DNA from: Campylobacteraceae bacterium
GTDB taxonomy: Bacteria > Campylobacterota > Campylobacteria > Campylobacterales > Sulfurovaceae
Length of the DNA: 60,674 bases
Assembly (NCBI GenBank): GCA_027081355.1
Contig: JALWKP010000057.1
Location: 1-60,674, forward strand
Direction of reading: 5' to 3'
Position 1 is the stretch's first letter. The number at the start of each line of letters is the position of its first letter. Under the pieces are notes generated by a model. That model was not told the DNA's origin. It ran no database searches and was given only the letters and a program-made list of their open reading frames with translations. The position numbers and the translations under genes are program-made. Positions 11,255 to 42,700 of the stretch are shown one piece after another.

Positions 11255-11256
11255 AT

Positions 11257-24561: not shown

Positions 24562-26358
24562 TTAATGTATATCATCAATTGTATCTATCATTTTTTTATT
24601 TTTTGGCTTCTCTAAACACATCTCTTCATAACTTCCGCAGTCTATAATCTTTCCATGAGAGAGTTTATAAACCACATCGCAGCTTTTTAAAGTGCTTAAG
24701 CGGTGAGCTACCATAAATACGGTTAAATTTCTATCAAGAGAATTAACAGCTTCCATCACAGCCTCTTCTGTTTTATTATCAAGAGCGCTGGTTGCTTCAT
24801 CCAGCACTATTACGCTGGTTTGCTTATATAAAGCGCGGGCAATTCCAATACGCTGACGCTGACCTCCTGAGAGCTGAACACCGCGCTCGCCTACAAATGT
24901 ATTATATCCTTGCGGAAGCTCTTCTATAAACTGATGAAGCTGCGCCTGTTTTGCCGCTTCTATCACTCTTTTTTCATCAATCTCTTCCCTTGGAACACCA
25001 AAAGCGATATTTTCAAGTATTGAGGCGTCGGAAAGATATATACTTTGCGGAACATGCGCAATATGTTTTCTCCAGCTTTGTATATTTGTATCGTTTATCT
25101 CTTTGCCGTCTATTAGCATTTTGCCCTTAGTAGGAATAAGCAGCCCCATAATAATATCAAGCAGTGTGCTCTTGCCGCTCCCTGTAGAACCCATTAAACC
25201 AATACGTGCTCCTTTAGGTATCATTAAAGATATATCTTTAATAATATAAGTTCTGGTGCCCATATATTTAAAATAGATATTTTCTAATACTATATCCTTT
25301 TCAAAATTTATATCATCAGAAATATTTTTATTATAATCAGAATCTATACATAAATAATAAACCACGTCAGAAATAGATGCTTGCGCTCCCATAATTACTG
25401 CCCAAGAGAAATAAGCTTGCTGCAATGAAGGCAGCAAACGCTGAGAACCCATTGCCATTGCACCAAGAATCGGCAATGCGCTTTGACCTTGAGAATTTAG
25501 GTAATATGCTAAAGAAGCTATTAAAACTATTCCAATTAATTCTAATATAGATTTTGGAAGTTGTGAAATAAAGGCATTATTACTAGATGCAATATGAACT
25601 TTTTGTGCATATTTTATATAATTTTTCAAAAATTTTTTTTGGGTATTATCCAATATAACATCTCTTATACCGCCAATGCCTTCTTGAAGATGTTTTATAG
25701 AACGGGGCTGATTTTCTGCAGCAATTACACTATTTTTTTGCAAAACTTTTCTTGAGAAATAACCTATTATAAGATATCCTCCTCCCAAAATACAAAAAGT
25801 CGCTATTGCAACAATAGGATTTATAAACATCATTGTCATAATAATTGCCATACTTGTAAATATCGCAATTACAAACATTAATAAATGGAGGATAGCAGCA
25901 CTAGCTGAAGTAATTTTTTCAGTTATTATGCTTATAAGTTCACTGCTGTTGTTAGTTAAATGAAATTCATAAGATTTATACAATGCACGTTTATAAATTT
26001 CACTTCTAAGCTGTATTGCCATACTTGCAGATAAGCGGGTATTAACCCATAAAAGCAAAATCCTTAAACCCGCAGAGAAAACAGCTGCTAAAATAAATGC
26101 TATTGTCAAAGGCAATAAAATTTCATCGGCAGATTTAATTCCTAAAATAGAAACAACAGGTTGAAACCAGGATTGTTTCATTAACATTTGAGGATTAGTC
26201 AATGCACCTAAAAAAGGAACTACCGCTCCTAAACTTAACATCTCTGAAAAAACAGATAATAACATTAAAAAAAATAATAAAGTAAGTTGCCAAATATATT
26301 TTCTACCTAAAAAATTCCATAGAAAAATAACATTCGATATCATTTTAGAATTTTTCAT
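24562..26358 (-). CDS. ABC transporter, fused permease/ATPase, PglK/MsbA-like flippase
   Basis: A 598-residue half-transporter. Six predicted membrane spans lie in residues ~20-320, and an ATPase domain in ~350-580. The ATPase has Walker A (GSTGSGKSTLLD), the signature LSGGQRQRIGIARAL, Walker B with VIVLDEATSALD and the switch His in MVAHRLSTL. Family relatives flip lipid-linked oligosaccharides (PglK) or lipid A. No Wzx-type flippase is seen in the cluster, so this is the likely exporter of the undecaprenyl-linked unit. It overlaps rmlB by 14 bases. Confidence 0.85.
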   Translation of the reverse strand: MKNSKMISNVIFLWNFLGRKYIWQLTLLFFLMLLSVFSEMLSLGAVVPFLGALTNPQMLMKQSWFQPVVSILGIKSADEILLPLTIAFILAAVFSAGLRILLLWVNTRLSASMAIQLRSEIYKRALYKSYEFHLTNNSSELISIITEKITSASAAILHLLMFVIAIFTSMAIIMTMMFINPIVAIATFCILGGGYLIIGYFSRKVLQKNSVIAAENQPRSIKHLQEGIGGIRDVILDNTQKKFLKNYIKYAQKVHIASSNNAFISQLPKSILELIGIVLIASLAYYLNSQGQSALPILGAMAMGSQRLLPSLQQAYFSWAVIMGAQASISDVVYYLCIDSDYNKNISDDINFEKDIVLENIYFKYMGTRTYIIKDISLMIPKGARIGLMGSTGSGKSTLLDIIMGLLIPTKGKMLIDGKEINDTNIQSWRKHIAHVPQSIYLSDASILENIAFGVPREEIDEKRVIEAAKQAQLHQFIEELPQGYNTFVGERGVQLSGGQRQRIGIARALYKQTSVIVLDEATSALDNKTEEAVMEAVNSLDRNLTVFMVAHRLSTLKSCDVVYKLSHGKIIDCGSYEEMCLEKPKNKKMIDTIDDIH

Positions 26359-27460
26359 TTATACCTTTCCCAATAATTTTATATTTTTTTAAATACTCCT
26401 TTACAGTTTTTACAATCCCGCTTTCAAATGTCTCGTTCGCCCTCCAGCCAAGCTCATTCTCTATTTTGCTGGCATCTATTGCATAGCGTCTGTCGTGGCC
26501 TGCTCTGTCTTTTACAAAAGTTATCAAGCTTTTGTAGCTGGTTAATTGGTTATTGGTTATTTGCGTATTGGTTTTAAGCGGATAAATTTCATCCAGCATT
26601 TCACATATTTTATTTACAATTTGTAAATTTGTTCTCTCGTTTCTGCCGCCTATATTGTAAGTTTCGCCCGCTTTTCCTTTGTGGTAAACCAAATCGATTC
26701 CTTTGCAGTGGTCAAGCACATAGAGCCAGTCTCTTATGTTTTTGCCGTCGCCGTAAATCGGTATCGGGTTGCCCTCTAGGGCATTTCTGATGATTGTGGG
26801 AATCAGTTTCTCATCATGCTGTTTTGGACCGTAATTGTTTGAACAGTTTGTAATTGTTGTATTCATTCCGTAAGTGTGGCGATAGCTTCTGACAATCATA
26901 TCGCTGGCTGCTTTGCTTGCACTGTATGGCGAATTTGGAGCATATGGGGTTTCTTCGGTAAAAAGCACACTTGGGTCTTCTGGCAGTGTGCCGTAAACCT
27001 CATCGGTTGAGATGTGGTGAAATCTTGGATATTGGTTGATTGTTGATTGTTGATTGTTGATAGTATATTTTTCCTTGTATTTAAACGGGGCTTCCATCCA
27101 GTGCTTATATGCAACATCTATAAGCGTATATGTTCCGTTTACATTTGTCTCTATAAACACTCCCGGATTTTCAATAGAGTTATCCACATGGCTCTCGGCT
27201 GCAAAATGGATAACCCCTTCAATATCGAACTCTTTAAAAATCGACTCCACCAAATCTCTGTCGCAAATATCCCCTTTTATAAATTCATATCTTGGGTTAT
27301 TTTCTACCTCTTTTAAATTTTCCAAATTACCGGCATATGTTAAGGCATCTAAATTAATAATTCTGTAATTTGGATACTTTTCTAAAAAATAGGAAACAAA
27401 GTTGCTCCCAATAAACCCCGCCCCGCCTGTTACAAGGATTGATTTTAAATTATTTTGCAT
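26345..27460 (-). CDS. rmlB: dTDP-glucose 4,6-dehydratase
   Basis: A 371-residue extended SDR: VTGGAGFIGSNFVSYFLEKYP, GVIHFAAESHVDNSIENP, HHISTDEVYGTL, YSASKAASDMIVRSY with catalytic Tyr and Lys, and FVKDRAGHDRRYAID at the C-terminus. It converts dTDP-glucose to dTDP-4-keto-6-deoxyglucose. It is longer than the usual 340-355 residues because two low-complexity insertions are encoded by 7-base tandem repeats. The first (about residues 134-146, TINNQQSTINQ) lies just before RFHHISTDEVYG; the second (about 295-309, TNTQITNNQLT) lies before SLITFVKDR. Both keep the frame and spare all catalytic motifs. Confidence 0.93.
   Translation of the reverse strand: MQNNLKSILVTGGAGFIGSNFVSYFLEKYPNYRIINLDALTYAGNLENLKEVENNPRYEFIKGDICDRDLVESIFKEFDIEGVIHFAAESHVDNSIENPGVFIETNVNGTYTLIDVAYKHWMEAPFKYKEKYTINNQQSTINQYPRFHHISTDEVYGTLPEDPSVLFTEETPYAPNSPYSASKAASDMIVRSYRHTYGMNTTITNCSNNYGPKQHDEKLIPTIIRNALEGNPIPIYGDGKNIRDWLYVLDHCKGIDLVYHKGKAGETYNIGGRNERTNLQIVNKICEMLDEIYPLKTNTQITNNQLTSYKSLITFVKDRAGHDRRYAIDASKIENELGWRANETFESGIVKTVKEYLKKYKIIGKGINEKF
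26535..26576. repeat. In-gene heptad array in rmlB (array 4)
   Basis: Six units of 7 bases: TAGCTGG, TTAATTG, GTTATTG, GTTATTT, GCGTATT, GGTTTTA. This 42-base, in-frame stretch encodes an Asn/Gln/Thr-rich insertion near residue 300 of RmlB. The unit resembles that of the hairpin before purT (TTGGTTA type). Confidence 0.72.
27034..27061. repeat. In-gene heptad array in rmlB (array 5)
   Basis: Four units: GGTTGAT, TGTTGAT, TGTTGAT, TGTTGAT. The array encodes an Asn/Gln/Ser/Thr-rich insertion just before the conserved HHISTDEVYG of RmlB. It is the least degenerate array in the window and so perhaps the youngest. Confidence 0.8.
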
Positions 27461-27492
27461 AATTCATCCTATGTTTAAAGTTTAAAATATTA

Positions 27493-27594
27493 TTTAGCAA
27501 TTTTACTTTTTTGTCTTTTTTTAGTATAATACGATTACAAATCGCCTTAGTGCACTCCCCCTCTTGGAGTGGGCTAAAAAGTAAAATTGCTAAA
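27493..27594. repeat. 102-bp element with 19-bp terminal inverted repeats between rmlC and rmlB
   Basis: TTTAGCAATTTTACTTTTT at the left end (27493-27511) is the exact reverse complement of the right end (27576-27594). Inside is a small hairpin (CACTCC 27553-27558 with GGAGTG 27566-27571) and an outward-facing TATAAT (27525-27530). It fills most of the gap between two genes that usually sit close together. It may be a small non-autonomous inserted element or an RNA hairpin regulating rmlB. Confidence 0.6.
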
Positions 27595-27609
27595 CTTTTA
27601 TCATAATCT

Positions 27610-28182
27610 CTATGCATAATAATCCGCTCCGTATTCAAAAATCTCTGCTTCGCTTAGCATTGGCGCATTTTTATCTTTGTCAGAAACCAAAATTTCAATC
27701 AGAGGCAAAATCCAGTCTATATTTATATCCATATCGTCAAAACGGATGCCTCTGTCAAAATCGGGCGCATAGTAGTTATCTACTTTATATGCAAAAATTG
27801 TCTCATCTTCCAATACCAAAAAACCGTGGGCAAAACCTCTTGGGATAAGAAGCTGCTTTTTATTCTCGCCGCTTAACTCAACCACTGCATATTTTCCAAA
27901 GGTCGGGCTCCCTTTTCTAATATCCACAGCAACATCCAAAGCACGCCCCTTTATTACACGCACAAGTTTTGTCTGTGCAAAGGGCGGCAATTGGTAATGC
28001 AATCCTCTTAAAACCCCTCTTTTGCTTTTGCTCTCATTATCTTGGCAAAAATTGAGGCTAAACCCCAAAAACTCTTCCAGTTTATCTTTTCTGAAAGTCT
28101 CTGCAAAATAGCCCCTCTCATCGCCGTGCACTTTTGGCTCGATTATTACAACATCTTCAAGCGCGGTTCTTGTAAATTTCAT
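27610..28182 (-). CDS. rmlC: dTDP-4-dehydrorhamnose 3,5-epimerase
   Basis: A 190-residue cupin enzyme. The landmarks are EPKVHGDERGYFAETFRKDKL, the core FCQDNESKSKRGVLRGLHYQLPPFAQTKLVRVIKGRALDVAVDIRKGSPTFG with the catalytic His in GLHYQ, and PRGFAHGFLVLEDETIFAYKVDNYYAPDFDRGIRFDD. It epimerises dTDP-4-keto-6-deoxyglucose at C3 and C5. It follows rmlA by 9 bases and carries an AAAGGTG ribosome site. Confidence 0.93.
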   Translation of the reverse strand: MKFTRTALEDVVIIEPKVHGDERGYFAETFRKDKLEEFLGFSLNFCQDNESKSKRGVLRGLHYQLPPFAQTKLVRVIKGRALDVAVDIRKGSPTFGKYAVVELSGENKKQLLIPRGFAHGFLVLEDETIFAYKVDNYYAPDFDRGIRFDDMDINIDWILPLIEILVSDKDKNAPMLSEAEIFEYGADYYA

Positions 28183-28191
28183 TTTGCACCT

Positions 28192-29070
28192 TTACTTTTC
28201 ATTTGCAATTTTTAAAAGATATTGACCGTATTGATTCTTTTTTAACGGCTGAGCCAGTTCAATCAGCTTATCTTTCCCTATCCAGCCCATATCGTAGGCA
28301 ATCTCTTCTACACAAGCCACCTTTAACCCCTGGCGGTTTTCGATTGTCTGAATAAACATACTCGCTTCAAGAAGGCTCTCATGCGTTCCGGTATCAAGCC
28401 ACGCATACCCTCTGCCCATAAGCTCTACTTTTAATCTGCCCTCATCCAGATACAGCTTGTTTAAATCTGTAATTTCAAGCTCTCCCCTAGCGCTGGGTTT
28501 AATTGTTTTAGCCTTTTTAACCACATCGTTTGGGTAAAAATATAGCCCCGTAACGGCGTAATTACTCTTTGGCTGCTGAGGTTTCTCTTCTATCGAAATC
28601 ACATTTCCGTTCTCGTCAAATTCTGCAACTCCGTATCTTTGCGGGTCTTTTACATAGTATCCGAAAACTGTTGCTTTATTCTCTTCTTTGGCATTTACAA
28701 CCGATTCGGCAAGCAGTTCGGTCAATCCGTGTCCGTAAAAAATATTATCCCCCAAAACCAGGCAAGCGTTATCGCCGTCTAAAAACTCTTCTCCCAAAAT
28801 AAACGCCTGTGCTAACCCGTCGGGAGAGGGCTGCTCTACATAACTAAACTTCATCCCCAAATCGCTGCCGTCACCCAAAAGCTTTTTGAAATTGGGCAAA
28901 TCGCTCGGAGTAGATATAATAAGCACCTCTTTAATCCCCGCCAACATTAGGACAGAGAGCGGATAATAAACCATAGGCTTGTCGTAAATCGGCACCAACT
29001 GCTTAGAAACCCCTTTAGTAATAGGATACAACCTAGTCCCGCTTCCGCCTGCTAAAATTATTCCTTTCAT
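28192..29070 (-). CDS. rmlA: Glucose-1-phosphate thymidylyltransferase
   Basis: About 292 residues starting [33 protein letters not shown], the signature of the nucleotidyltransferase. [41 protein letters not shown] and [16 protein letters not shown] follow. I start at the ATG ending at 29070 because GGAGAG lies 8 bases upstream; the frame is open 10 codons further, but those lie next to the heptad array and look non-coding. It makes dTDP-glucose from glucose-1-phosphate and dTTP, the first step towards dTDP-rhamnose. Confidence 0.93.
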
Positions 29071-29091
29071 TTCAACTCTCCAGGCAGAGTT

Positions 29092-29126
29092 AATTGACAA
29101 TTGATAATTGATAATGGATAATTATT
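29092..29126. repeat. Heptad array, left border of the four-helix-bundle gene (array 6)
   Basis: Five units: AATTGAC, AATTGAT, AATTGAT, AATGGAT, AATTATT. It runs into the stop codon of the four-helix-bundle gene. Read on the other strand it matches arrays 1 and 7, so arrays 6 and 7 form imperfect inverted repeats around that gene. Confidence 0.78.
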
Positions 29127-29484
29127 TTTTTGCATTGTTTTCCTTTGCTGATTTTATTATTGAAATTAGCAGTTTTGTAATTTCTGCCAAATCTTTTAAC
29201 AAGCTTCCTGCCTCTTTTACCGTCAAAAAGTTTGTCTTTTTTAACAGCTCTATCCAATACCTTGTTTCTCTAGTCTCTTTTAGTGAAATAGAGAGTTTTG
29301 AAATAAAATCATTCCTGCTCTGAGCATCTTGCGCTTCATTAACATTGGCACCGATTGATGTTCCGCACCTTAAGAGTTGCTTAGATAATACATACTCTTT
29401 TTTCTCAGCACATAAATACTTATAAAGATTCACAATTCTAATTGCAAAAGCAAACGATTTATCAAGCAAAACATTCTCCCTCAT
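29122..29484 (-). CDS. Four-helix-bundle protein (23S rRNA intervening-sequence protein family)
   Basis: About 120 residues, all helical. The hallmark patterns are LLDKSFAFAIRIVNLYKYL, KKEYVLSKQLLRCGTSIGANVNEAQDAQSRNDFISKLSISLKETRETRYWIELLKK, and a C-terminal helix ending in Lys/Asn. This is the four-helix-bundle family also found inside intervening sequences of bacterial 23S rRNA genes and related to Avd proteins of diversity-generating retroelements. I start at the ATG ending at 29484, which has GGAGGGG 6 bases upstream. It separates rmlA from the epimerase gene, has no obvious sugar function, and heptad arrays lie on both sides. Its role is unknown. Confidence 0.85.
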   Translation of the reverse strand: MRENVLLDKSFAFAIRIVNLYKYLCAEKKEYVLSKQLLRCGTSIGANVNEAQDAQSRNDFISKLSISLKETRETRYWIELLKKTNFLTVKEAGSLLKDLAEITKLLISIIKSAKENNAKK

Positions 29485-29494
29485 AAGCCCCTCC

Positions 29495-29529
29495 AATTAT
29501 CCATTCTCAATTATCAATTCTCAATTCTT
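29495..29529. repeat. Heptad array, right border of the four-helix-bundle gene (array 7)
   Basis: Five units: AATTATC, CATTCTC, AATTATC, AATTCTC, AATTCTT. The last codons and the stop of the upstream epimerase gene (...ELRIDN, stop) are read from these repeats. Twenty-four bases are identical to array 1 at 9327-9350. Confidence 0.8.
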
Positions 29530-30541
29530 TAACATACCAGTCCAGCGACTCTTCTAGCCCCTTTTCTAAAGTATGTGTAGGCGAATAGCCCAAATATTTT
29601 TTTGCCAATTCAATGCTTGCATTAGAGTGGCGAATATCTCCGGGGCGAAAATCTCTATAAATGGGTTCTTTTGTTTTAATCCCGGGCACTCTTGCTTCTA
29701 TGCCGCTTTTTATGGCTTTAAACAGGTTATTCAAAGTTTCTCTGCCTCCGGCTGCTGCATTATAAATTCTGTTTAGCGCTTCTTTATTTTCCGTAACCCC
29801 TGCTAAAATATTTGCCTGAATAACATTTTCTATATATGTAAAATCACGGCTTGTTTCGCCGTCGCCGTTAATGTAAACATCTTCTTCTTTCAGCATTTGC
29901 GATACCCACTTAGGAATAACCGCCGCATACGCCCCGTTTGGGTCTTGCCGTTTGCCAAATACGTTAAAATACCTAAGCCCGATTGTTTCAAAACCGTAGC
30001 ATTTATTAAATACTCCTGCATAAAGTTCATTTGAGTATTTAGTAACTGCATAAGGCGAAAGCAGGTTTCCGGTTCTACTCTCAACTTTTGGCAACTCTTT
30101 GGAATCTCCGTAAACCGAAGACGAGGAAGCAAAAACAAAGCGTTTAACACCATTGTCTTTAGCTGCTGTAATCATATTTAAAAAGCCTGTTACATTTGAA
30201 CGGTTTGTGTTTATGGGGTTATTAATAGACCTTGGCACAGAACCGAGCGCTGCTTGATGCAAAACAATATCCACATCTTTGGTTATCTCGTTGCAAGTTT
30301 CAAAATCTGCAATATCCCCTTCTATAAAAATAAAATTTCCCCACTGCTTATTGGTAATACAATTTTTGATTTTTTCCAAATTATAACGGTGCCCGGTAGA
30401 AAAATTATCGATAGATACAACTTTCTGATTCAACTTAAGCAGCGCTTCTGCCAAATTAGAGCCGATAAATCCGGCAACCCCGGTTACCAGCCATACTTTT
30501 GGATTCGCTTTTAACTGCTCTTTTATTTCTTTATAATACAT
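29507..30541 (-). CDS. UDP-sugar 4-epimerase, WbpP/TviC-like SDR
   Basis: A 344-residue extended SDR: WLVTGVAGFIGSNLAEALLKLNQKVVSIDNFSTGHRYNLE, VLHQAALGSVPRSINNP, FASSSSVYGDS and SPYAVTKYSNELYAGVF with the Tyr/Lys pair. The long N-terminal extension (MYYKEIKEQLKANPKVW) and the residues following SIDNFSTG are typical of WbpP-type enzymes that epimerise UDP-GlcNAc or UDP-GlcNAcA. It is the first gene of the polysaccharide cluster and starts next to the divergent control region. Its C-terminal tail ELRIDN is encoded by heptad array 7, so the natural end may have been altered. Confidence 0.83.
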   Translation of the reverse strand: MYYKEIKEQLKANPKVWLVTGVAGFIGSNLAEALLKLNQKVVSIDNFSTGHRYNLEKIKNCITNKQWGNFIFIEGDIADFETCNEITKDVDIVLHQAALGSVPRSINNPINTNRSNVTGFLNMITAAKDNGVKRFVFASSSSVYGDSKELPKVESRTGNLLSPYAVTKYSNELYAGVFNKCYGFETIGLRYFNVFGKRQDPNGAYAAVIPKWVSQMLKEEDVYINGDGETSRDFTYIENVIQANILAGVTENKEALNRIYNAAAGGRETLNNLFKAIKSGIEARVPGIKTKEPIYRDFRPGDIRHSNASIELAKKYLGYSPTHTLEKGLEESLDWYVKELRIDN

Positions 30542-30844
30542 CTCTTCCTCGTTAAAGATTTTCTTTGCTCTAGGCAGAATTATAGCCGAAAGTTATTGCA
30601 AAGTGTGTAATTTGTTACAAATTTTTATCTTTTAAAATATTTCATTTCATTAATCCCAAAGCAAGGAAGTATTAATTTTTTTACACACTTTTTTAAAATT
30701 AAATATTTATTCAAATCCCATATATAAGTGTATTTTCGTAATTAATTACATGATAAATTAGTTAATTTTGTAATTTTTTGCCATATAGTTACAGCTTGCT
30801 ACACTTTTTGGATAATATAGCAAAATGAAAGGAAAGGAGCGGAA
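30542..30844. promoter_or_regulatory. Divergent control region of the polysaccharide cluster
   Basis: These 303 AT-rich bases between the leftward epimerase gene and the rightward sugar transferase contain no gene. There is an 11-bp inverted repeat, AAAGTGTGTAA (30600-30610) with TTACACACTTT (30681-30691), 70 bases apart. It resembles the palindrome at 3917-3953. A GATAAT box (30811-30816) may serve the rightward gene. The long separation would allow DNA looping or a long RNA stem; neither is proven. Confidence 0.45.
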
Positions 30845-31744
30845 TTGATTATAATTGGCAATGAGTATGAATTTAACAATATTGAACTTTCTGCAATAAA
30901 AAAAAGATATAATTTAATAAATATTCCATATAATAAGAGTAGTCAAGAAGTAATAAAAATAGTAAATAAATTTTTATCCCAAAACCGCTCTAAAATTATT
31001 GTTTTAAATGTAAAAAATGTAGAGCAAGAATTAATGGAGTATTTAATTGAATTGACAAAAAGAGGTTATAAATTGATAGAAATAGAAAATTTTTTGGAAA
31101 ATTATCTAAATAAACTTTATATTTCTCCTAATCATATAACCTGCATTAAGTCATATAATAAATGGCAGTATTTTCAAAAAAGAATAGTAGATTTGATTAT
31201 TGGACTTCCATTGGCTATTGTTACAACTCCAATAATGTTATTTTCTGTATATAAAATAAAAAAAGAGTCACCTTGTGCTCCTCCTATTTTTAAACAAATC
31301 AGAGTGGGCAAAGATGGAAAAACTTTTGTCTGTTATAAATTTAGAAGTATGCATGTAAATTGCGATTATGTTAATAAATATACACAAACAAATGACCCGC
31401 GTATTTTTAAATACGGGCGTTTTATGAGAAAAACAAGAATAGATGAATTGCCCCAACTGTTAAATGTGTTAAAAGGCGAAATGCACTTAATCGGACCTCG
31501 TGCAGAGTGGATAGATTTGGTGGAAAATTATGAAAAAGAGTTGCCAAATTACCATTTTCGGCATAAAGTTGCTCCAGGAATTACCGGCTGGGCTCAAGTA
31601 AATTATCCTTATGGACAAAATATGGAAGATACCCGCCAAAAATTAATGTATGATTTATATTACATAAAACACTGGAATTTATGGTTAGAGATAAAAACTG
31701 TATTTAAAACTGTCTCTGTAATATTAAGCCGTAAAGGTTTATAA
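30845..31744 (+). CDS. Undecaprenyl-phosphate sugar-1-phosphate transferase
   Basis: About 299 residues. The start is a TTG at 30845, decided by the AAAGGAG just upstream; the nearby ATG inside that site leads to a quick stop. The N-terminal ~120 residues are a soluble region of unknown role. A membrane-associated helix follows (KRIVDLIIGLPLAIVTTPIML) and then the catalytic core: PIFKQIRVGKDGKTFVCYKFRSMH, RIDELPQLLNVLKGEMHLIGPRAEW with the Asp-Glu dyad, and FRHKVAPGITGWAQVNYPYG. It attaches the first sugar phosphate to undecaprenyl phosphate and so starts repeat-unit assembly. It lacks the five-span N-terminus of WbaP/WcaJ, so it is nearer to the PglC size class with an added domain. Confidence 0.87.
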   Translation: MIIIGNEYEFNNIELSAIKKRYNLINIPYNKSSQEVIKIVNKFLSQNRSKIIVLNVKNVEQELMEYLIELTKRGYKLIEIENFLENYLNKLYISPNHITCIKSYNKWQYFQKRIVDLIIGLPLAIVTTPIMLFSVYKIKKESPCAPPIFKQIRVGKDGKTFVCYKFRSMHVNCDYVNKYTQTNDPRIFKYGRFMRKTRIDELPQLLNVLKGEMHLIGPRAEWIDLVENYEKELPNYHFRHKVAPGITGWAQVNYPYGQNMEDTRQKLMYDLYYIKHWNLWLEIKTVFKTVSVILSRKGL

Positions 31745-32145
31745 ATCTTATACTGTTACACAAATAATAAGTCCACTTCACAATAGTAAGTTCAAATTAC
31801 GGCACTAAAAAATATCATAAATCAAAAAAATCTTATATGCTTAGCTTTGGCTAAACTTTTGAGTAATTTTATTTAATTTCTAATACTTTTTAGCACCATA
31901 CTTTGGAAGCAACCATTATACAGCAGTTTCATATTGCGAATGCAGTGTAGTTTGATATATTTAAATTCATACCGATAAATTGGGGTAAGCTGTGTTACTT
32001 TAAGTGTCTTTTTTCTTTGAATCAAAATAATTTTCTGTGTAATTAGTATATCTTATTAAAAATCTATCTTTGCTTTAATTGTCTTTATAGTAAGATTTAA
32101 AATCTAAATTTATATCAGTTTAATGGGTTTATCGGGGGAGTGTTT
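31745..32145. other. 400-bp intergenic region with repeat R2 (copy 1)
   Basis: There is no gene. The first part carries a repeat shared with 43764-43880 (see next entry). The second part (from ~31930) is AT-rich and probably holds the promoter of the TAXI operon, though I find no clear -10/-35 pair. Confidence 0.6.
31780..31925 (+). repeat. Dispersed repeat R2, copy 1
   Basis: This copy aligns by eye with 43764-43880 in the same orientation. Shared stretches include ACAATAGT, AAATTAC, ATCATAAATCAAAAAAA, TGCTTAGCTTTRGCTA and CATACYTTGGA. Copy 1 has about 28 extra bases in the middle. It lies directly after the sugar transferase gene. No coding capacity. Confidence 0.7.
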
Positions 32146-33087
32146 GTGTTTAGGTTTTTTGGGTTGTATTTTTTCTTTGTCTGGGCGCTTTATAGCAGGC
32201 AGATTATTATTGGAACCGGCGGGGTTGGCGGGATTTATTATCCGACAGGGCAGAATATTTGCAAAATTTTAAATGAAAAAGCAAGCGGTATTGAGTGCAA
32301 TGCTGTCTCTACCAAAGGTTCTGTTTATAATATAAACGGTATTAAGCAGGGGCTTTTTGAATTTGCGATTGCTCAAAGCGATACGATTTTTTCGGCATAT
32401 AACGGTATTGGAACATTTAAGGGCAAGCCGTTTAAAAAAATCCGCACTGTTATGACTATCTATCCCGAACTTTTTACATTTATTGTAAGAAAAGCGGCAA
32501 ATATCAAAATGATTCATGATATTAAGGGCAAGATTATAAGCATCGGCGTTAAAGGAAGCGGCACGCGAGATACGGCAGAGATGCTTTTTAGGGCTGCCAA
32601 ACCGCTTAGTAAAGATATTATCAAAAGCGTAAAAGAGTTAGATGCCCAGCAGAGCCAAGAGGCGCTAAAAGAAGGCAAAATAGACGGCTACTTTACAGTT
32701 ACGGGGCATCCTAGCAGCCAAATTAAAGAGTTAGCCCAAAGCACCGATATAGATATTATAAGCATTTCGCCGCAAAGCTGTTTGGCGCTAAAGGGCATTT
32801 TGATTAAAAATCCGTTTTTTACTCTTAGCAAAATTCCTGCCAATACTTACAGAGGCGTAAATAAAGATGTGGAGAGTTTTGGGGTTAAAGCAACTTTGAT
32901 AACAAGTGCCGATACCGATTATAAAACTGTTTATACACTTATAAAAACCGTTATGACAAATTTTGAAGAGTTTAAAAAAATGCATCCTGCATACTCCAAT
33001 ATTACAAAAAAAGATGTAATAAAAGGCTTAGGCGCGCCGCTTCATCCGGCTGCTAGAGACTATTTTAAAAAGATGGGGATTTTTTAA
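32146..33087 (+). CDS. TAXI family periplasmic solute-binding protein
   Basis: About 313 residues with an N-terminal signal peptide (FRFFGLYFFFVWALYS). Two GTG codons are possible; I choose 32146 because the GGGGGA site (32133-32138) is then 7 bases away and not abutting. The TAXI fold is clear: IIIGTGGVGGIYYPTGQNICKIL at the start, SVYNINGIKQGLFEFAIAQSD, RTVMTIYPELFTFIVRKAA and SIGVKGSGTRDTAEMLF. Such proteins bind small organic acids or glutamate-like ligands for TRAP transporters, but no TRAP permease gene is present. The stop codon directly abuts the start of the sensor cyclase, so it probably works as a ligand-sensing partner. Confidence 0.85.
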   Translation: MFRFFGLYFFFVWALYSRQIIIGTGGVGGIYYPTGQNICKILNEKASGIECNAVSTKGSVYNINGIKQGLFEFAIAQSDTIFSAYNGIGTFKGKPFKKIRTVMTIYPELFTFIVRKAANIKMIHDIKGKIISIGVKGSGTRDTAEMLFRAAKPLSKDIIKSVKELDAQQSQEALKEGKIDGYFTVTGHPSSQIKELAQSTDIDIISISPQSCLALKGILIKNPFFTLSKIPANTYRGVNKDVESFGVKATLITSADTDYKTVYTLIKTVMTNFEEFKKMHPAYSNITKKDVIKGLGAPLHPAARDYFKKMGIF

Positions 33088-35190
33088 ATGAATATTTTGA
33101 AGAAAATGAGCATACGTTCCAAATTTATCATTTTAATGTTAATTGTAAGCATCTCCAGCATTATTGCTATCGGGGTTATTGGCAACAGAAGCGGAGAGAG
33201 GATTTTGAAGTGTTCAGTTTCGCAAAAGCTTGATTTACTAAAAGATATGAAAGCGCGCCAAATCAAAAACTACCTAAACACAATTAAGAGCAATTTAAAA
33301 ATGCTATCATCCGATAAAATGGTAGCAGATGCAATGAGAGAATTTATTGTATCTTACAATTTGGCAAAATACAACGCCCTAAGCCCTAAAGAAGAGAAAG
33401 AGTTAAAAGAGTATTACAGAAAAAATGTTTTGCCGTTTGTAAAAAAGGGCTCGGAAGCAAAAGTTTCGCTTGAGAATATCTTGCCAAAAACCGTAGCGGC
33501 TAACTATTTGCAGTATCACTACATTGTAAAAAACAGTTTCGCAAAAAGCAAAGATAAATTAATTAAAGCGGACGACAATAGCAGTTACAGTAAAATACAC
33601 GCAAAATTTCACGCTAGTTTAAAAGATATTTGCGACCATTTGGGTTTTAAAGATTTATACTTTATCGAAGCCGAAAGCGGCGAAATTGTTTACAGCGTAA
33701 AAAAAGAGATAGATTTTGCAAGCAGTTTAAAAGTGGGCGATTACAGAAAAAGCAATTTTGCTGCGCTGGTAAAAAAGTTAAACCGCTCGGTGGCAAAAGG
33801 CTCGCTGTTTATGTCGGATTTTGAAAGTTACATTCCATCTTGCGGAAAACCTGCTGCATTTGTCGGGATAACTGTTTATGACGGCGATGAATTTTTGGGA
33901 ATTTTAGCTGTTAGGATAGGAAGCGGCAAGATAGATGAAATTCTTAGCGAAAAGGGCAAATATAAAGCAATAGGGCTTGGCAAAAGCGGTGAAATTTATA
34001 TACTAGGCAGCGATTACAAAATGCGCTCTCAAAGCCGCTTTATGCAGGAAAACCCAAAAAAATTTTTAAAACAGTTAGAAAAAATCAATATACCTGCAAA
34101 AGAGATAGAAGAGATTAAGCGCTATCACAGCACAATTTTGCATTTAAAAGTGACAACAAAAAGCGCAAAAAAAGCGCTTGAGGGCAAGGATGGCATAGCT
34201 TATGCCAAAAATTACCTTGGGCAAAAGGTTTTAAGCTCTTATGCGCCGCTGCATCTTGACTTTTTAAACTGGGCGATAATTGTCGAGCAAGGTGCAAAAG
34301 AGGCAGGCAGTGAAATTGTCGATTTTAGAGAGAAATTTGCAGTTTCGACAATTGTTATAATCTTTTTGGTAACGCTTTTTGCAATGCTCTCTGCCAGAGC
34401 CTTTACAAAACCGGTAAATGCGCTTATTAAGGGGGTTAGAGGCAACAAAGGCAAAGTTTGCGTTGATAGCAGCGACGAGTTTGGGGAGCTTGCAGATTCG
34501 TATAACTCTATGATGCAAAAAATCAAAACCCAAAAAGAGGAGATAGAGCAAAAAGATAACGAAATTAACCATCTTCTTCTTGATATTATGCCAGAGACCA
34601 TTGTTAAAAGATATTTGGCAAAAGAAGAAGATATTATAGAAAAACACTCTAATGTTACGGTGCTATTTACTTCGCTGACCGGACTTTCTGAACTTTACGA
34701 GCGCTATTCGCACGATGTTGCGTTTAAGCGCCATAACGACCTTTTTGAATCATTCGACAATGCAGCAATAGAACTTGGGGTAGAGAAAATTAAAACCATA
34801 GGCGACGATTATATGGCAGCAAGCGGCTTAATAAATCCGCGCTTTAACCATGCGCAAAAAGCGGTTGATTTTGCCATTAAAATGTTAGATATTATAGAGG
34901 CTTTCAACAGAGAAAACGGCACAGAAATCGGCATTAGAATAGGTTTAGACTCAGGCGATGTTTATGCCGGGCTTGTGGGGAATATTAAAATCGAATACAA
35001 TGTGTGGGGGAATACAGTTGATATTGCCAGTGCATTGCGATACTATACCTGCAATAATTCGATAAGAATAACCAAAATCGTATATGAATTGCTAACAAAC
35101 AAAGAGCAGTTTGCAAAATGCAAAAGCGTAGAGATAGAAGAGTTTGGAGTAGTTGAAAGCTATCAATACGGCGGCTGCAAAGAGGATTAA
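33088..35190 (+). CDS. dCache-HAMP sensor with degenerate class III nucleotide cyclase domain
   Basis: 700 residues. A transmembrane helix lies near 10-30, then a large periplasmic dCache-like sensor (~35-400) and a second transmembrane helix (~415-435, FAVSTIVIIFLVTLFAMLSA). A HAMP segment (~437-485) and a coiled coil follow, then a class III cyclase domain (~515-690). The fold is clear, for example VEKIKTIGDDYMAASGL and IGIRIGLDSGDVYAGLVG. Against the known active site, Lys569 and Asp573 are kept. The first metal Asp is Ser529 (LFTSLTG). The substrate-selecting Asp is Asn638 (YNVWG), and the transition-state Asn and Arg are Asp645 and Ala649. It may be a pseudo-cyclase or have new chemistry. 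It is coupled to the channel gene 2 bases downstream. Confidence 0.85.
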   Translation: MNILKKMSIRSKFIILMLIVSISSIIAIGVIGNRSGERILKCSVSQKLDLLKDMKARQIKNYLNTIKSNLKMLSSDKMVADAMREFIVSYNLAKYNALSPKEEKELKEYYRKNVLPFVKKGSEAKVSLENILPKTVAANYLQYHYIVKNSFAKSKDKLIKADDNSSYSKIHAKFHASLKDICDHLGFKDLYFIEAESGEIVYSVKKEIDFASSLKVGDYRKSNFAALVKKLNRSVAKGSLFMSDFESYIPSCGKPAAFVGITVYDGDEFLGILAVRIGSGKIDEILSEKGKYKAIGLGKSGEIYILGSDYKMRSQSRFMQENPKKFLKQLEKINIPAKEIEEIKRYHSTILHLKVTTKSAKKALEGKDGIAYAKNYLGQKVLSSYAPLHLDFLNWAIIVEQGAKEAGSEIVDFREKFAVSTIVIIFLVTLFAMLSARAFTKPVNALIKGVRGNKGKVCVDSSDEFGELADSYNSMMQKIKTQKEEIEQKDNEINHLLLDIMPETIVKRYLAKEEDIIEKHSNVTVLFTSLTGLSELYERYSHDVAFKRHNDLFESFDNAAIELGVEKIKTIGDDYMAASGLINPRFNHAQKAVDFAIKMLDIIEAFNRENGTEIGIRIGLDSGDVYAGLVGNIKIEYNVWGNTVDIASALRYYTCNNSIRITKIVYELLTNKEQFAKCKSVEIEEFGVVESYQYGGCKED

Positions 35191-35192
35191 AA

Positions 35193-36632
35193 ATGATAGA
35201 TTATATTATTCAAAACGGGTGGATGCCTTGGCTTATTAGCATTACGCTGCTCTATCCGCTCTCTATTGTTTTAATTGGCGAAATTATTTTTAGAATACGG
35301 CATAAATACCCGCAATTTACATCTATTTTAAGGATTATGCAGTTTGTTATTATTCCTTCGTTTATTATAATGAAGATGATGACAACAATAATCGGGCTTA
35401 GCAGCTCTAATGTTTTTGTAAAGATATTTAGCACCATTTTTTGGATTTCTGTAATTATTTCGACTGTGGCGGCATTTAACGCCCTGATGCTTTTAAAAAA
35501 TTCTAAAACTGCAAAAGTACCAAAATTACTAATAGATTTAGCACGGTTATTTCTTATTATTTTGGGCATTGCATTTGTAGTATCGCACATTTGGGGCGTT
35601 GATTTAACTAAACTTTTAACTGCGCTTGGCGTTGGCTCGGTGGTTTTGGGATTGGCTTTGCAAGATACGCTAAGCGGCGTATTTTCGGGCTTTGCACTGC
35701 TTTCTGGGAATCAGTTTAATATTGGAGATTGGCTAAAAGTCGGAGATACAGAGGGGCAGATTGAGGGTATGGATTGGCGCTCGGTTACCCTGCTTACGCG
35801 CGAAAACGATTATGTCGTAATTCCAAATACGATGCTTGCAAAAGACAGATTTATAAACTTTAGCCGCCCAAATCCGATACATATGGAAAGGGTAACATTT
35901 GATATATCTTTTGACGATGCGCCCCATAAAGTTAAAGATATTTTGCTCTCTGTGGCAAATCAGACCGACGGCATTTTAAAAGAACCGGCACCCATTGTGG
36001 CTCTGCTTTCTTACGATGAGTTTTCGGTTAAATATGAAATTCAGTATTTTATAAACGATTACAGCCGCCAGCCGGTAATTAGAGATAAATTTATATCGGC
36101 AGTATGGTATGCAGCAAGCAGAGACGGCTTTGTCTTCCCTACGCGCTCGCACGAAGTTTACCATTTTGAGGGCAATAAACCGGGTGAAAACGGCGATATT
36201 GGCGCAATTTTAGAAAAATTAAGAACCCTGCCTTTAAAATTAAGCGAAGAAGAGTATAAAAATGTCGCAAAAAATGCAAAACTTTACAATTACGGAAAGG
36301 GCGAAGAGATACTGCGCCAAGGAGAATATACCAAACTTTTATACTTTATTACAAAAGGGAGCGTAGAAGAGGTTTTTATAGATAATAAAGAGAAAAAACA
36401 CCCAATTGCCGCCCTTGAAGAGGGGCAATTTTTTGGAATGCGCACCCTTACTGGAACCCAGCCAAACAAAACATCATTCTACGCCAAAAGCGATACAGAG
36501 GTAATTACCCTGAATTTAAACGCAATAAAAATAATCCTTCAAGCCTATCCGCATTTTGCCCAAACAATAGAAACCGTCTTTGAAAACCGGGATGAAATGC
36601 TGGAAAAAGTAAAAAAACTGGTGCACAATTAG
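35193..36632 (+). CDS. MscS-type channel with C-terminal cyclic-nucleotide-binding domain (bCNG-like)
   Basis: 479 residues. There are four predicted membrane helices. The pore helix reads LLTALGVGSVVLGLALQDTLSGVFSGFALL, followed by the MscS beta-domain (FNIGDWLKVGDTEGQIEGMDWRSVTLLTRENDYVVIPNTML) and the C-terminal alpha/beta part. Residues ~365-470 form a CRP-like domain (YGKGEEILRQGEYTKLLYFITKGSVE). This pairing defines the bacterial cyclic-nucleotide-gated branch of the MscS superfamily. In the phosphate-binding cassette the usual FGE is FGM (Met416), and the usual Arg ten residues later is Lys426. Ligand binding may therefore differ from cAMP/cGMP. It is the last gene of the TAXI-cyclase-channel operon. 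Confidence 0.87.
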   Translation: MIDYIIQNGWMPWLISITLLYPLSIVLIGEIIFRIRHKYPQFTSILRIMQFVIIPSFIIMKMMTTIIGLSSSNVFVKIFSTIFWISVIISTVAAFNALMLLKNSKTAKVPKLLIDLARLFLIILGIAFVVSHIWGVDLTKLLTALGVGSVVLGLALQDTLSGVFSGFALLSGNQFNIGDWLKVGDTEGQIEGMDWRSVTLLTRENDYVVIPNTMLAKDRFINFSRPNPIHMERVTFDISFDDAPHKVKDILLSVANQTDGILKEPAPIVALLSYDEFSVKYEIQYFINDYSRQPVIRDKFISAVWYAASRDGFVFPTRSHEVYHFEGNKPGENGDIGAILEKLRTLPLKLSEEEYKNVAKNAKLYNYGKGEEILRQGEYTKLLYFITKGSVEEVFIDNKEKKHPIAALEEGQFFGMRTLTGTQPNKTSFYAKSDTEVITLNLNAIKIILQAYPHFAQTIETVFENRDEMLEKVKKLVHN

Positions 36633-36745: not shown

Positions 36746-39700
36746 ATGAAAAATATAATTATTTTAATTTTAACAATATTTGTGCTAATTGGATGCGGCG
36801 GCGGAAGTTCTAAAAGTTACTATAACAATACATCCCAAAAAAGCGGTTTTGAAAAAATATATACCCTAACTCAATACAGTAAAAAATTAAATTTCAACTC
36901 TAGCGGAAAATATGTTTTGCAAAATGCTCCAAAAGGTATGGCAGTTTATCCAAACGGCACTCTTGTCTGGACGCCAGCAAATGAGCAGGCGGGAAATTAT
37001 GCTGTTGAGGTAAATCTTGTAAAAGACGGCAGTGTCATTGAAAGCAAGAAGCTGAATTTAAAAGTAATAGATTCGGGTAAAAGTTATGATGGGGTTTTTA
37101 TTGATTTAAGCGGAAAAAATGGAGGAGACGGAAGTCCTCAGAATCCATATGGCACCTTTAAAGAGGCTTGTGAAAATTTAAACGGTCTGCACAATATTTA
37201 CATTCGGGGCGGAGTTTATAAAAACCCGGGTTATCATAAAGATTATGGCAAAAGCGGCAGATTTCCGGCAATAGAAGCCAATTGCCAAGGAACAAAGAGC
37301 AATCCTATTGTTATCCGTCCATGGGGCAATGAGTATGTGAAATTAAAAACAGATGCGCTTTATGGCATTAAAATTAAGCCGGGAGCAAAATATATAACCG
37401 TGCAGAATTTAGAAATTGAAGGTGAAGCAGAAGATATTACGCTTGATACTGCACTAAAGTATTGGTGGCAGGACAATAACGATACAATGCAAAGCACCGG
37501 CATATCTGCAAGCGGAGACAATATTGTTATAAAAGACAACGTAATCCACGCAATGAGCGGAAGCGGAATAAGTGTTAGCGCAGGCAAATATGCAACAATA
37601 GAGGGCAATATTGTTTATGATTGCGATTGGTGGACAATTGCCGGCAGCAAAGGAATCGGCATAACTTCTGCCAGGGGAAGCGATGCAAACGGCGGGTATA
37701 AAAATAAAATTATTAACAATTTGGTTTTTAATGTAGAGCAAAGAGTTATGTCGCATGTTTGGAAAAAGGGGTTTGCAACTCTTACAATTGATGAAGGCGA
37801 AGCGCTTTTGATTCAAGAGGGCAAACAGACTGACGGCACACAAAGCAGCAGTTATAACGGAAAATATTTAGTTAAAGATAACATTTTATTATATAACGGT
37901 AAAACGGCAGTATCTAATTTGGCAAAAGATGTAAATTTTATAAATAATACCCTTTATAATAATGGCGGCGCTACAAAGCAAGCAGGGTTTAGAGTGGGGC
38001 ATTCTAAGAATATAAATATTGAAAATAACGCGATAGAATCAAATATTTCGCAAACTGTTTTATACTCTTGCGACAATTCAAGCAGCAATATCAATTTAAT
38101 TAATAATTATGCAAAAGGGGTTATTGCAAATAGCAGTATAGATGGTATTAAAAGTGTCAATAAACTGTTTAACGACCCTAAAAACTTTGATTTTTCGATA
38201 GTTTCTAATTTGCCTCAAAATATTGGCGCCGGCAAAGATGCCATTATCAATATAAAGAAAAAATTGAAACTTTATAATATAAAGGTGCAAAGAAAACATT
38301 TAAAAGTTAATCAAGCCAATGAGACTAAATATATTGTAGAACACGCACCGGGTAAAATAGACTGCAGCCATTATAATGATGAAAAAGACCCATATATCCT
38401 AATTACCAATATAAATAGCAGTCATACGCTTGTTAAAGATTTAGGAATAACACAATTTAAATTATATATTAAGCATAAATTCGGCGAATGTATAGACAGA
38501 GCCGACTCTTTAAACGATGCAGACACTAAAGAGGCATCGTTTATAGACAGCAAAGTAATACATGCAAAATACAGCGATAATTGCGGACACAGCGGTTACA
38601 CAGACAGCAACGGAATCTTTAAGTATAAAAAAGGATGCGATGTCAGTTTTTGGGCAGGCAATGTCTATTTAGGCAAGGCCAAGCCTATTGAAGTTCCAAA
38701 AAATTTGCATTTAAAAACAAAAACATATGTAACTCCTCTGCTTTTGGCAGGCAAAAAAAGGATTGATGATTCTAAAGTAATTAAAATAGTTAAATTTTTA
38801 ATGGCAATAGATAAAGACAGCAATGCCAGCAACGGTATTGAAATACCTAAAGAGTCTATTTTATTAAAAAACAAACAGAGTGCCCAAGATTACAAATTTA
38901 GCGATGAAGATGAAGCGCCAAGCACTGTAGAGGCAAAAGAACATCTGTTTCATACGCTTCATAAAAACTTTACTGATACGCTCAATAAAGAGATAAATAA
39001 ATTTGAGACCTTTTTTTATAATCCAAAAATTAATGATTCCAATTTAAAATACTCAATTAAAAACAGACCAAGCTGGCTTAACTTTAATACAAAAAACGGG
39101 ATATTAAGAGGTGTTGCAAATATTGCCGGAGAGTATAAAGATATTGAAATTAGCGCAACTGACAATAAAAACAATAACTTTATAGTTGCTAAATTAAATA
39201 TTACTGTTAATCCCCCTTTGAATCTGGCTCATCTTTTTGGAAAGGCTTCGCAAGGAAGTGAATATGGCAACAGTTATCCGGCTGAGAATGTTTTGGATGA
39301 TAATAACGATACATTTAACCATACTTTAAACAATTCAAAAACAAATTGGCTGCAAATAAAATTGCCTGAGGGGGTTGAAATAAAAGAGATTGTAATTGTA
39401 AATAGAAACTCTTATATGTCCCGATTAAACGGAGCTAAAGTTTATTTAAGCAATAAAAGTTACAACGGAATATTAAATAAAGACAATTTAATTGGAACAC
39501 TGTCGGCAGATTTAGAACAAAAATTTAATTTTAAAATTCCTAAAAAGGGCAGTTATGTGCTGATTAAAGCTAAAGGAAACAATTATTTGCATATAGCACA
39601 AGTGCAAGTTTACGGAACTTTTGGAAATAAACCGTATATTATTCACAAAAATGAAACATTTGGTTTGGATTTTAATGCAACTGAGGGTGCTTATGTTGGC

Positions 39701-42700
39701 AAAATCGAAGCAAAAGCAAAAAGCAATAAAACATTGAGATATAAAATTTTAGATAATGTGCCGTTTAAAATCAACAGCAAAGGCGTAATTATATTAAATG
39801 GAAAACTAAATCATAATGTAACACCAAGTTACAGCTTTAAAGTTAAAGTAAGCAACGGTTCTTTGTGGGATACGGCAAATGTAAATGTTAAATTACTTTC
39901 AAAAAATGGTGTTAAAGCGTGGCGATGGAGTGGAATAGAAGGTAATTCGATAAACAGCTTTTTATCTTCTGCACATTATAAAAATGATTCGCCTGATAAA
40001 AGTTTTTACCTTGATAAAATCGATTTTAATGCAAATAAAGAAGATAACTTTGGGCAAAAAATGAGCACAGTTTTAAGAGTTCCCAAAAGCGGTTTTTATA
40101 CATTTGCAATTATAGGAGACAACAGTTGCCGGCTTGATTTTAACGGAATAAAAAATTTTGCTTATAAATCCAGCCGGGGGAATTATCAAGATTGGAAAAA
40201 TGCAGGAAAAAGCAAAAAAGTTTATTTGCAAAAAGGGGAAATTTATCCGCTTACAGCTTATCTTAAAGAGAGCAGCGGGCAAGAGAGCATAAGTGCAGGC
40301 TGGAAAATGCCTGGAAAAGACAGTTTTACTGTTATAGGAGCGAAATATTTATATAAAGAAGAGTTAAACATTACAAATATTAAACCTCATTTCCTAAACA
40401 ATATAAATAAATTTAATATTTTAGAAAGCGAAGACAGTATAGGCGATACAGTGCTAAATTTAAAAGCCAGCGATTCCCAAGATGAATTGACATACACAAT
40501 TATAGGCGATGTTCCATTTACTATTGATAATAATGGAAATATAATAATAAGCGGTTCTTTGGAAGTAAAAGATTACCAATTTGATGTAAAAGCCAGTGAC
40601 GGCACTAATGAGACAATCCGCCATATTGTAATTCACTCGCCAGTAAATACAAAAAGTTTAAACGAGGCAAAAGAGGAGTTTTACGAGAGAGCCAGAGTGT
40701 TTGACGGCAATAAAAGTGTAGATGAGTTGGTAGAGAGCTTTTTGGCTTATGCCCATAAAAAGGCTAAAAATGATTATAGTTTGTATATTAGCGAAGCTCT
40801 TAACCCTAAAGTGTGGCAATTTATAGAGGAGAATCCGTCTGTTAAAGAGGGGCTCTATGCTTCGAGATTTCCGGTAAATCCATACAGTATTAAAAATTTG
40901 GGGGATTTTTTAGATAAATGGAAAGAAGAGGGCAAAAGCGATGCTTTTATTCAAAAGTATAAGAATGTAGCTTTAGGGCTTGCAATAAATGCAAAAGAAC
41001 GCGGTATTTTTAAAGAAGCTCTTTTTGGAGATACCGGTGACCATAAAGTTGTAGATTATTTAGATATTCCCAAAATGGAAGCCAAAAAAAGGCGCTGGCT
41101 GGAACATTTTGATTTTAAAAACCTGGGTTACGGTATAAGCAAATCGAAATTTATTGATATGCTTTATATTTATTATAAACTTTCAAAAAGCGAAAGAGAA
41201 TCTATACGCACGGCAGGAGCCAAATTAAAAAAAGCATTTAATGACGGTTATTCGGTAAATGATATAACGCCTGATATTAGAAAAACTTATAATATTTCAT
41301 ATGATGAATTAAATGTTTATAGAATTTTAAGCGGGTTAAACAGGCTTGAATGCTATGCTCAGGGGAACCCTTGTGCCAAAATAGATACATTTATCGAAAA
41401 TGAAAACAATGATACTCTGACAAAAAGTTATATTTTGGCTAATTTCAAAAAGTATAAAAATAAAATCGGCTTAATTTCGGCAAGAGATGATATGAATTGG
41501 GAGTTGGCAGGAGAGATTGGAATTGTGCCAAAAAATCAAAAAGATTATCGTTTAATGCCATTTTATGATTTGGCAAATATGAAGATAGCAAATGATGAAA
41601 TTCCAGCAAAAGATTTTAATGACAGCGAGCCAAATTGGCCTTTGTTTAATTATCCGCTCTCTAAATTGCCTTGGCAGATTTTAGCTTTAGAACAGAGTGC
41701 TCAGAAAAAAGAGTGCAATTATGTTAAAAACCGTTTTTTTGAGACAGACAAAGCTAAATTACGAGAAAGTTATCCTCCTAATGCAGTTGATGGAGGTAAA
41801 AAAGCAGAAAAAAGATTTATTCAATATACTACCTATACTTGGGATTATGACAAGCCAGAAGTTTGGTTTAGAAAAAGCGATTGGTCTCCTCATAGAACTG
41901 TTTACAGAGTTTTGCAAGACGGCGGCGTGTGCGGACGGCAATCTACAATGGGACAGCATGTCAATGAATGCTTAAACCGCCCGAGTATCGGAACTGGACA
42001 GCCGGGACACAGAGCTTGGGTAGGAGTGTTTTTAAGCAAAGACAATCCTGAACAGTTTTATACAACAATAGGTTATAAAGTCGGTTCAAGAGAATCGGCA
42101 ACACCCCATAGCCGCACTATCTACAACCAATATACAAGTGAAATTAGAGAAAATGGCTTGGAACGCTTTACCGGAGTTGTAACCGGCGTAAGCCAAGCAA
42201 GTGCGGGAGAACACAAATACAACCAGTCTATGATACTTCAGCATATTTCTAAACTGATGGAAAAAGAGAATTCTGCAAGTGCTGAAGCTCTGCTTAAAAA
42301 GGCTATTGAGCTGGTTCCGCAAAATACAGATGCTTGGTATCAGCTGTCTTTATATTATGCAAAATTGGACGAGCCGGAAAAAATTATTGCACTTGCAAAC
42401 GAGTATATGCAAAAAAGAGACACTTTCTTTATGGAGCCAAATAATCGCAAAGGTGCGGATAATTTAGAAATAGTTACAGGAAAGAATATAGCTTTTTCCA
42501 TAAATTTAGCTCCTAGCATAAACTATGGCAAAGGCGAAAAAGCCGAGTGGGGGAAAGAGCAGCTTTGGAAATATTTAGACAAATATGAAAAAAATTACAG
42601 GTCTATAAGAAGTTACAGAAACCAAAACAGATATTTAGCAAATTATTACCTTGGCAAATTAAAAGATAAAGGCGCTTTTAAAGATGCTGTAAAAGAGCTT

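Follow-up and report, generated by a model that had tools for sequence, protein, structure and literature searches.

A TAXI-family binding protein, a dCache receptor with a degenerate cyclase domain and an MscS-type channel encoded in one compact operon of a Campylobacteraceae bacterium

INTRODUCTION

MscS channels of bacteria are known to open when the membrane is under tension. In bCNG channels, which occur in cyanobacteria and other bacteria, an MscS channel is followed by a CNB-fold domain. Periplasmic binding proteins (SBPs) also act outside transport: their stimulation of receptors is an accepted mechanism, reported for 13 SBP families, and in such systems (the BctC-BctE kinase, chemoreceptors, and c-di-GMP enzymes) the SBP gene adjoins that of a receptor with a periplasmic ligand-binding domain (PMC9602780). 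TAXI proteins are one SBP family. VcGluP belongs to a TRAP transporter (PMC11574862), and BP0403 of Bordetella, in a TAXI-GltS arrangement, indicates that a TAXI protein without a TRAP gene can serve another carrier (PMC12344293).

Here, we describe three adjoining genes in a window of 60,674 nucleotides of a Campylobacteraceae genome (contig JALWKP010000057.1, positions 1 to 60,674) that resemble each of these systems and differ from each. The channel has the bCNG architecture, but its CNB domain lacks the canonical Glu and Arg, and its genetic partners are a dCache-cyclase receptor and a binding protein. As in SBP-activated receptors, an SBP gene adjoins the gene of a receptor with a periplasmic ligand-binding domain; however, the output domain has a class III cyclase fold, lacks catalytic residues, and is paired with an ion channel. 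The TAXI protein shares with VcGluP and BP0403 the fold and the contacts Y45, S75, Q93, and E125, but it has no permease partner and its domain-2 pocket is altered. Membrane class III cyclases of three Alphaproteobacteria (L046, L049, and L050) have the same N-terminal dCache, HAMP, and cyclase fold at 31 to 33% identity; those have all six catalytic residues and no MscS neighbor. In the open-licence literature, we found no report of such a trio, of a pseudocyclase-channel output, or of a TAXI protein in a receptor role, and we know of no description of this binding protein-receptor-channel module.

RESULTS

All three genes lie on the forward strand. The first, for the TAXI-family binding protein, was called as an open reading frame of 315 amino acids at 32140..33087. 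The second in-frame GTG, at 32146, is the better start because GGGGGAG stands at a normal distance upstream and the signal peptide then begins MFRFF, giving a preferred gene of 32146..33087. The second gene encodes the dCache-HAMP-cyclase receptor (33088..35190, 700 amino acids), and the third encodes the MscS-CNB channel (35193..36632, 479 amino acids). The gaps between them are 0 bp and 2 bp, with the TAA of the TAXI gene joined directly to the ATG of the receptor gene (TAAATG). The trio is real, and our open reading frame calls agree with a preliminary description of this DNA, which had reported three abutting genes 0 and 2 bases apart. Promoter and terminator scans gave hits at chance level (22 against 18.3 and 6 against 5.1), so the limits of the operon rest on spacing. 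Chance adjacency of the three genes was ruled out by a gene order kept across phyla.

A sugar transferase gene ends 395 bp before the operon, and the gene of a 2334-amino-acid beta-helix/PA14/TPR protein starts 113 bp after it; the flanking genes are not part of the unit. Upstream, the region 26345-31744 holds nucleotide-sugar epimerase/dehydratase and sugar transferase genes of a polysaccharide synthesis cluster. The downstream protein (36746-43750) has right-handed beta-helix, F5/8 type C, PA14, Ig/cadherin-like, and TPR segments. The host genome is 1.86 Mb and 96% complete. Because its relatives carry the labels Campylobacteraceae, Epsilonproteobacteria, or Nitratifractor in public records, we place it as a Campylobacterota metagenome-assembled genome (MAG) presumably near Nitratifractor and Sulfurovum.

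The first gene product matched NMT1_3 at 264.6 bits and TIGR02122 at 304.7 bits (cut-off 84), the latter placing it in the TAXI binding-protein family. The preliminary description had noted that no TRAP permease accompanies it, and this stands: none lies near the trio. The only two DctM TRAP large permeases found in the host genome each have their own binding protein. One, on contig C100, is fused and adjoins its own TAXI, which is 48% identical to the window TAXI; the other, on contig C105, is accompanied by DctQ and DctP genes. Judged by these gene neighborhoods, the window TAXI is an orphan, without a permease of its own. A search of the host genome for a GltS symporter found none, which speaks against a TAXI-GltS arrangement as in Bordetella.

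We mapped the TAXI pocket on the glutamate contacts of VcGluP (PMC11574862). The window TAXI keeps Y45, Y46, S75, Q93, E125, and G156, as well as G203, and carries H123Y, D157T, Y200T, and M201V. The changes H123Y, D157T, Y200T/S, and M201V are common to the window TAXI and its operon-encoded relative in L009; in the TRAP-linked TAXI of contig C100, H123, Y200, and M201 are unchanged and position 157 is N. Because the kept contacts include Y45 and Q93, the two with large effects in VcGluP (PMC11574862), the ligand is likely glutamate-like, with a changed specificity possible.

The receptor is predicted to comprise TM1, a periplasmic dCache domain (about residues 30 to 405), TM2, a HAMP region (about 430 to 500), and a cyclase-fold domain (about 517 to 694). 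Guanylate_cyc matched at 134 bits, and dCache_1 matched below threshold, at 35.9 (cut-off 45). In the AlphaFold model (mean pLDDT 87.9), a long TM1 helix leads into an elongated periplasmic part built from a pair of Cache-like alpha/beta units, and TM2, the HAMP helices, and a cyclase fold follow. The best PDB matches of this last domain are class III cyclases (Foldseek TMt 0.8 to 0.9), and it has the class III cyclase fold. The channel matched MS_channel_2nd, 3rd, and 1st, with 66 bits for the MscS beta domain and 49 bits for cNMP_binding, and its AlphaFold model (mean pLDDT 86.0) shows an MscS fold followed by a C-terminal CRP-like CNB domain. Profiles and models thus bear out both the membrane sensor with a cyclase-fold output and the MscS-type channel with a CRP-like domain that had been proposed for this DNA.

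We scored catalytic residues by alignment to mammalian AC5 C1 and C2 at metal Asp-1, Lys938, metal Asp-2, Asp1018, Asn1025, and Arg1029, for which the canonical set is D-K-D-D-N-R. The window domain reads S-K-D-N-D-A. Codon 529 (34672..34674, forward strand) gives Ser where metal Asp-1 is expected (AC5 C1 Asp396), and codons 638-649 (34999..35034, forward strand; YNVWGNTVDIASA) place Asn, Asp, and Ala at Asp1018, Asn1025, and Arg1029. Four of the six residues are missing, and the domain lacks the full catalytic set of an active class III cyclase; metal Asp-2 and the base-contacting Lys are retained. Relatives of the window read VTDDNR/H (L010 to L012), SADSSY (L031), and HPNNQR (L055) at these positions. 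All six catalytic residues were present in only 5 of 49 MscS-linked cyclases, all from Oscillatoriales-type cyanobacteria, and a group of Pseudanabaena/Moorena relatives has five of the six. Crocosphaera-type loci (L029, L034, L037, L038, and L039) have a wholly degenerate cyclase (NSTNKF), no MscS neighbor, and in its place an S41/PDZ protease gene after the receptor.

None of the 15 scorable binding-protein-linked receptors has metal Asp-1, against 24 of the 51 others, a contrast (Fisher p 0.0005) that is uncorrected for phylogeny and involves two clades only. The correlation may reflect these two clades rather than a cause, since many MscS-linked cyclases that have no SBP lack Asp-1 too.

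Is the degenerate domain decaying? In the relatives with a PstS-like binding protein, the pseudocyclase domain is conserved equally with the sensor, and pN is well below pS (0.198 against 0.668 for the cyclase domain of L010 and L011); these values come from those relatives rather than from the window because its TAXI-bearing relative, L009, ends before the cyclase. Since nonsynonymous change is far below synonymous change, the dead domain of the relatives is, by this measure, under purifying selection and retained for a purpose. Our genome searches covered class III and class I cyclases. The window cyclase was the only class III cyclase found in the host genome, the linked cyclase was likewise the only one found in three relatives, and the class I search was negative in all five genomes covered, the host among them. 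Rescue of the window domain in a heterodimer was rejected: the genome search gave no second class III cyclase as a partner, and the domain is incomplete both as the metal-side and as the substrate-side half.

The phosphate-binding cassette in the channel's CNB domain is degenerate as well. Its sequence (36423..36488, forward strand; GQFFGMRTLTGTQPNKTSFYAK) departs from the canonical type G-x-F-x-G-E-...-P-R-[AST]; the segment GQFFGMRTLTGTQPNKT has neither the phosphate-binding Arg nor the Glu of the bCNG cassette. The canonical P-R was found in 0 of 49 linked channels (the alignment of L073 is uncertain). Unlinked MscS-CNB paralogues read in the same genomes have it in four of six cases (GEISLLTGTPRTA, GELSLMLGVPRTA, GEMSLLMGIPRTA, and GELGLITGSPRSF), and the other two lack the Arg. 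Decay of the cyclase and loss of the CNB Glu did not strictly go together: the intact cyclases of L040, L051, and L052 adjoin channels with Val at the Glu position.

We then compared gene neighborhoods. A scan with the receptor alignment over one genome for each of 84,980 species gave 79 loci; it relied on two dCache peptide motifs and so sampled the family, and the counts are not population frequencies. Neighbors were identified by our own open reading frame calls and profiles, and most loci come from MAGs. Of the 63 loci with more than 1 kb downstream, 48 have an MscS-CNB gene no more than three genes away from the receptor, and in 43 the two are immediate neighbors. The pair occurs in at least seven phyla (Cyanobacteria, Planctomycetota including Kuenenia, Aquificota, Gammaproteobacteria, Bacteroidota, Actinomycetota, and Campylobacterota), and the receptor and channel trees have the same main groups. 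By gene order and phylogeny, receptor and channel are a conserved unit. Within the window's own family the module is rare, since the channel profile found the channel in only 5 of 175 genomes.

The pair varies in its copies and surroundings. In L028:3240-12200 and L062:2947-11800, one MscS-CNB gene comes after a tandem row of three dCache-cyclase genes, and MscS-CNB genes stand in tandem in Symploca (L061 and L069). Glutaminase and ammonium transporter genes lie next to cyanobacterial pairs (L030:4663-5706, L032, L057:4342-5808 and 9976-12012, L058, and L070), and their recurrence hints at a nitrogen or glutamate/glutamine theme. In three cyanobacterial loci (L042:3249-5985, L067:7276-10605, and L076:3106-5830), the receptor has as neighbors a di-haem cytochrome c peroxidase and a protein with a DAHL domain, which is another ligand-binding fold; a PBP_like_2 protein joins them in two of the three. 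In a Xenococcaceae MAG (L071:689-3409), a dCache-HAMP part is in frame with MscS-CNB in a 906-amino-acid protein that lacks the cyclase domain and the first 64 residues of the channel. This single MAG contig holds either a natural deletion-fusion or an assembly error; a real fusion would show that the cyclase can be skipped.

Of the three parts, the binding protein is the one that is exchanged. In the receptor clade of the window (10 rows, support 99), each of the nine members whose upstream sequence is available has an SBP gene directly upstream of the receptor, at spacings that range from a 7-bp overlap to 85 bp; this is the arrangement of SBP-activated receptors. The SBP is a TAXI protein in two (the window and L009, whose TAXI is 69% identical to that of the window) and a PstS-like PBP_like_2 protein in seven (L010, L011, L012, L020, where it is split into two open reading frames, L031, L055, and L075). 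The PstS-like proteins occur in other Campylobacterota, Aquificaceae, and Thiotrichales, and no cognate permease was found beside them in the flanks. The stretch of L009 ends inside the receptor, with its channel out of view, and L055 has no channel gene within its stretch. In a separate cyanobacterial group (L030, L032, L035, L042, L053, L066, and L067), a PBP_like_2 gene lies 3' of the channel or the receptor, and many members of the receptor-channel pair have no SBP nearby. TAXI as a conserved core was rejected, as it was present in two species only (175 family genomes by channel profile and 150 by receptor). The adjacency of TAXI, cyclase, and MscS-CNB genes is thus confined in its TAXI version to two species of one genus, while binding protein, receptor, and channel do recur across phyla. 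Because a PstS-like protein fills the same slot in the closest relatives, the three-part architecture is, on the evidence of gene order, conserved with the binding-protein family swapped.

DISCUSSION

The sequences themselves give the three domains, the tight operon, the conservation of the pair, the exchange of the SBP, and the loss of catalytic and cyclic-nucleotide-binding residues. Taken together with the single-chain structural models, they lead us to a tentative reading, to which we give somewhat less than an even chance: ligand-loaded TAXI acts on the dCache receptor, and the pseudocyclase gates the channel by contact. On the outer side of the inner membrane, the secreted TAXI would bind a small ligand, probably a glutamate-like amino acid, and its closed form would dock on the dCache domain. 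By way of TM2 and HAMP, the signal would travel from dCache to a dimer of the cyclase-fold domain, a putative pseudoenzyme that would make no cyclic nucleotide and perhaps still binds a nucleotide. This domain would contact the CNB domain of the MscS heptamer and shift the gating of its pore, so that an outside solute would set the ease with which ions and small osmolytes leave the cell. We infer the docking, the contact, the ligand, and the direction of gating from these data. Contact between pseudocyclase and CNB domain is the preferred relay because both production and sensing of a cyclic nucleotide appear undermined. dCache domains often bind ligands directly, and the SBP could instead be accessory to a receptor whose dCache domain binds the ligand.

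A circuit from ligand to channel had been proposed in the preliminary description. Its outline stands, as the unit is conserved, the TAXI is an orphan, and a chain from binding protein to receptor to channel is the best reading; its implied cyclic-nucleotide step is not supported, with four of six cyclase residues missing, including metal Asp-1, a CNB domain without Arg and Glu, and a genome search that gave neither a class I cyclase nor a second class III cyclase. That the sensor makes a cyclic nucleotide that the CNB domain binds to gate the channel is therefore unlikely for this locus. The pairing of cyclase and CNB domain in many phyla, the five Oscillatoriales-type loci with all six residues, and the Pseudanabaena and Moorena group with five are consistent with it; such a circuit was likely the ancestral state, and a nucleotide may still be in use in the Oscillatoriales versions whose cyclase is intact. 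However, the window also lacks Asp1018, Asn1025, and Arg1029, and no linked channel has the canonical Arg, even beside an intact cyclase.

Non-canonical class III cyclases and CNB domains without the Arg may be active or bind other ligands, and in known families CRP-like domains without the Arg do bind other ligands. The cyclase-fold domain might accordingly bind or convert a non-canonical nucleotide or other small molecule that the Arg-less CNB domain senses. The retained metal Asp-2 and base-contacting Lys and the purifying selection in relatives fit this idea, but the kept residues vary (SKDNDA in the window, VTDDNR in relatives, and HPNNQR in others), unlike one conserved chemistry, and we consider it improbable. 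We think it a poorer prospect that the TAXI protein serves transport, by sharing the C100 TRAP permease or by way of some other carrier, and that it is only co-expressed with an independent pair. The host does have a TAXI-TRAP pair, and TRAP-less TAXI proteins can serve other carriers, as in TAXI-GltS (PMC12344293); however, the C100 permease is accompanied by a TAXI of its own whose pocket differs, GltS was not found in the host, and the slot in relatives holds unrelated PstS-like proteins whose flanks have no cognate permease. A Pycsar-type defense, in which a cyclase signals to a cyclic-nucleotide-sensing membrane effector, is very improbable, since the weak PADLOC matches (PycC at 30.9 bits in the cyclase domain and PycTIR at 28.8 bits in the CNB domain only) reflect shared folds, the active-site residues of an active PycC are missing, a periplasmic sensor with a binding protein is unsuited to an intracellular phage trigger, and the neighbors are polysaccharide genes with no defense genes among them.

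Returning to gating by protein contact, the trio suggests an undescribed coupling of an outside ligand to an ion channel in bacteria. It is possible, though we hold it doubtful, that these loci form a phylum-spanning class of ligand-gated channels in which an exchangeable SBP and a non-catalytic cyclase relay control MscS by protein contact, and which shows a route away from adenylate-cyclase/bCNG signaling. An annotation of "cyclase plus CNB channel" need not imply cyclic-nucleotide signaling. Living relatives range from intact to wholly degenerate cyclases beside the same channel, which makes a change from second-messenger to direct coupling testable. If an MscS channel is controlled by a receptor and, through it, by a periplasmic binding protein, solute release would be under chemical control.
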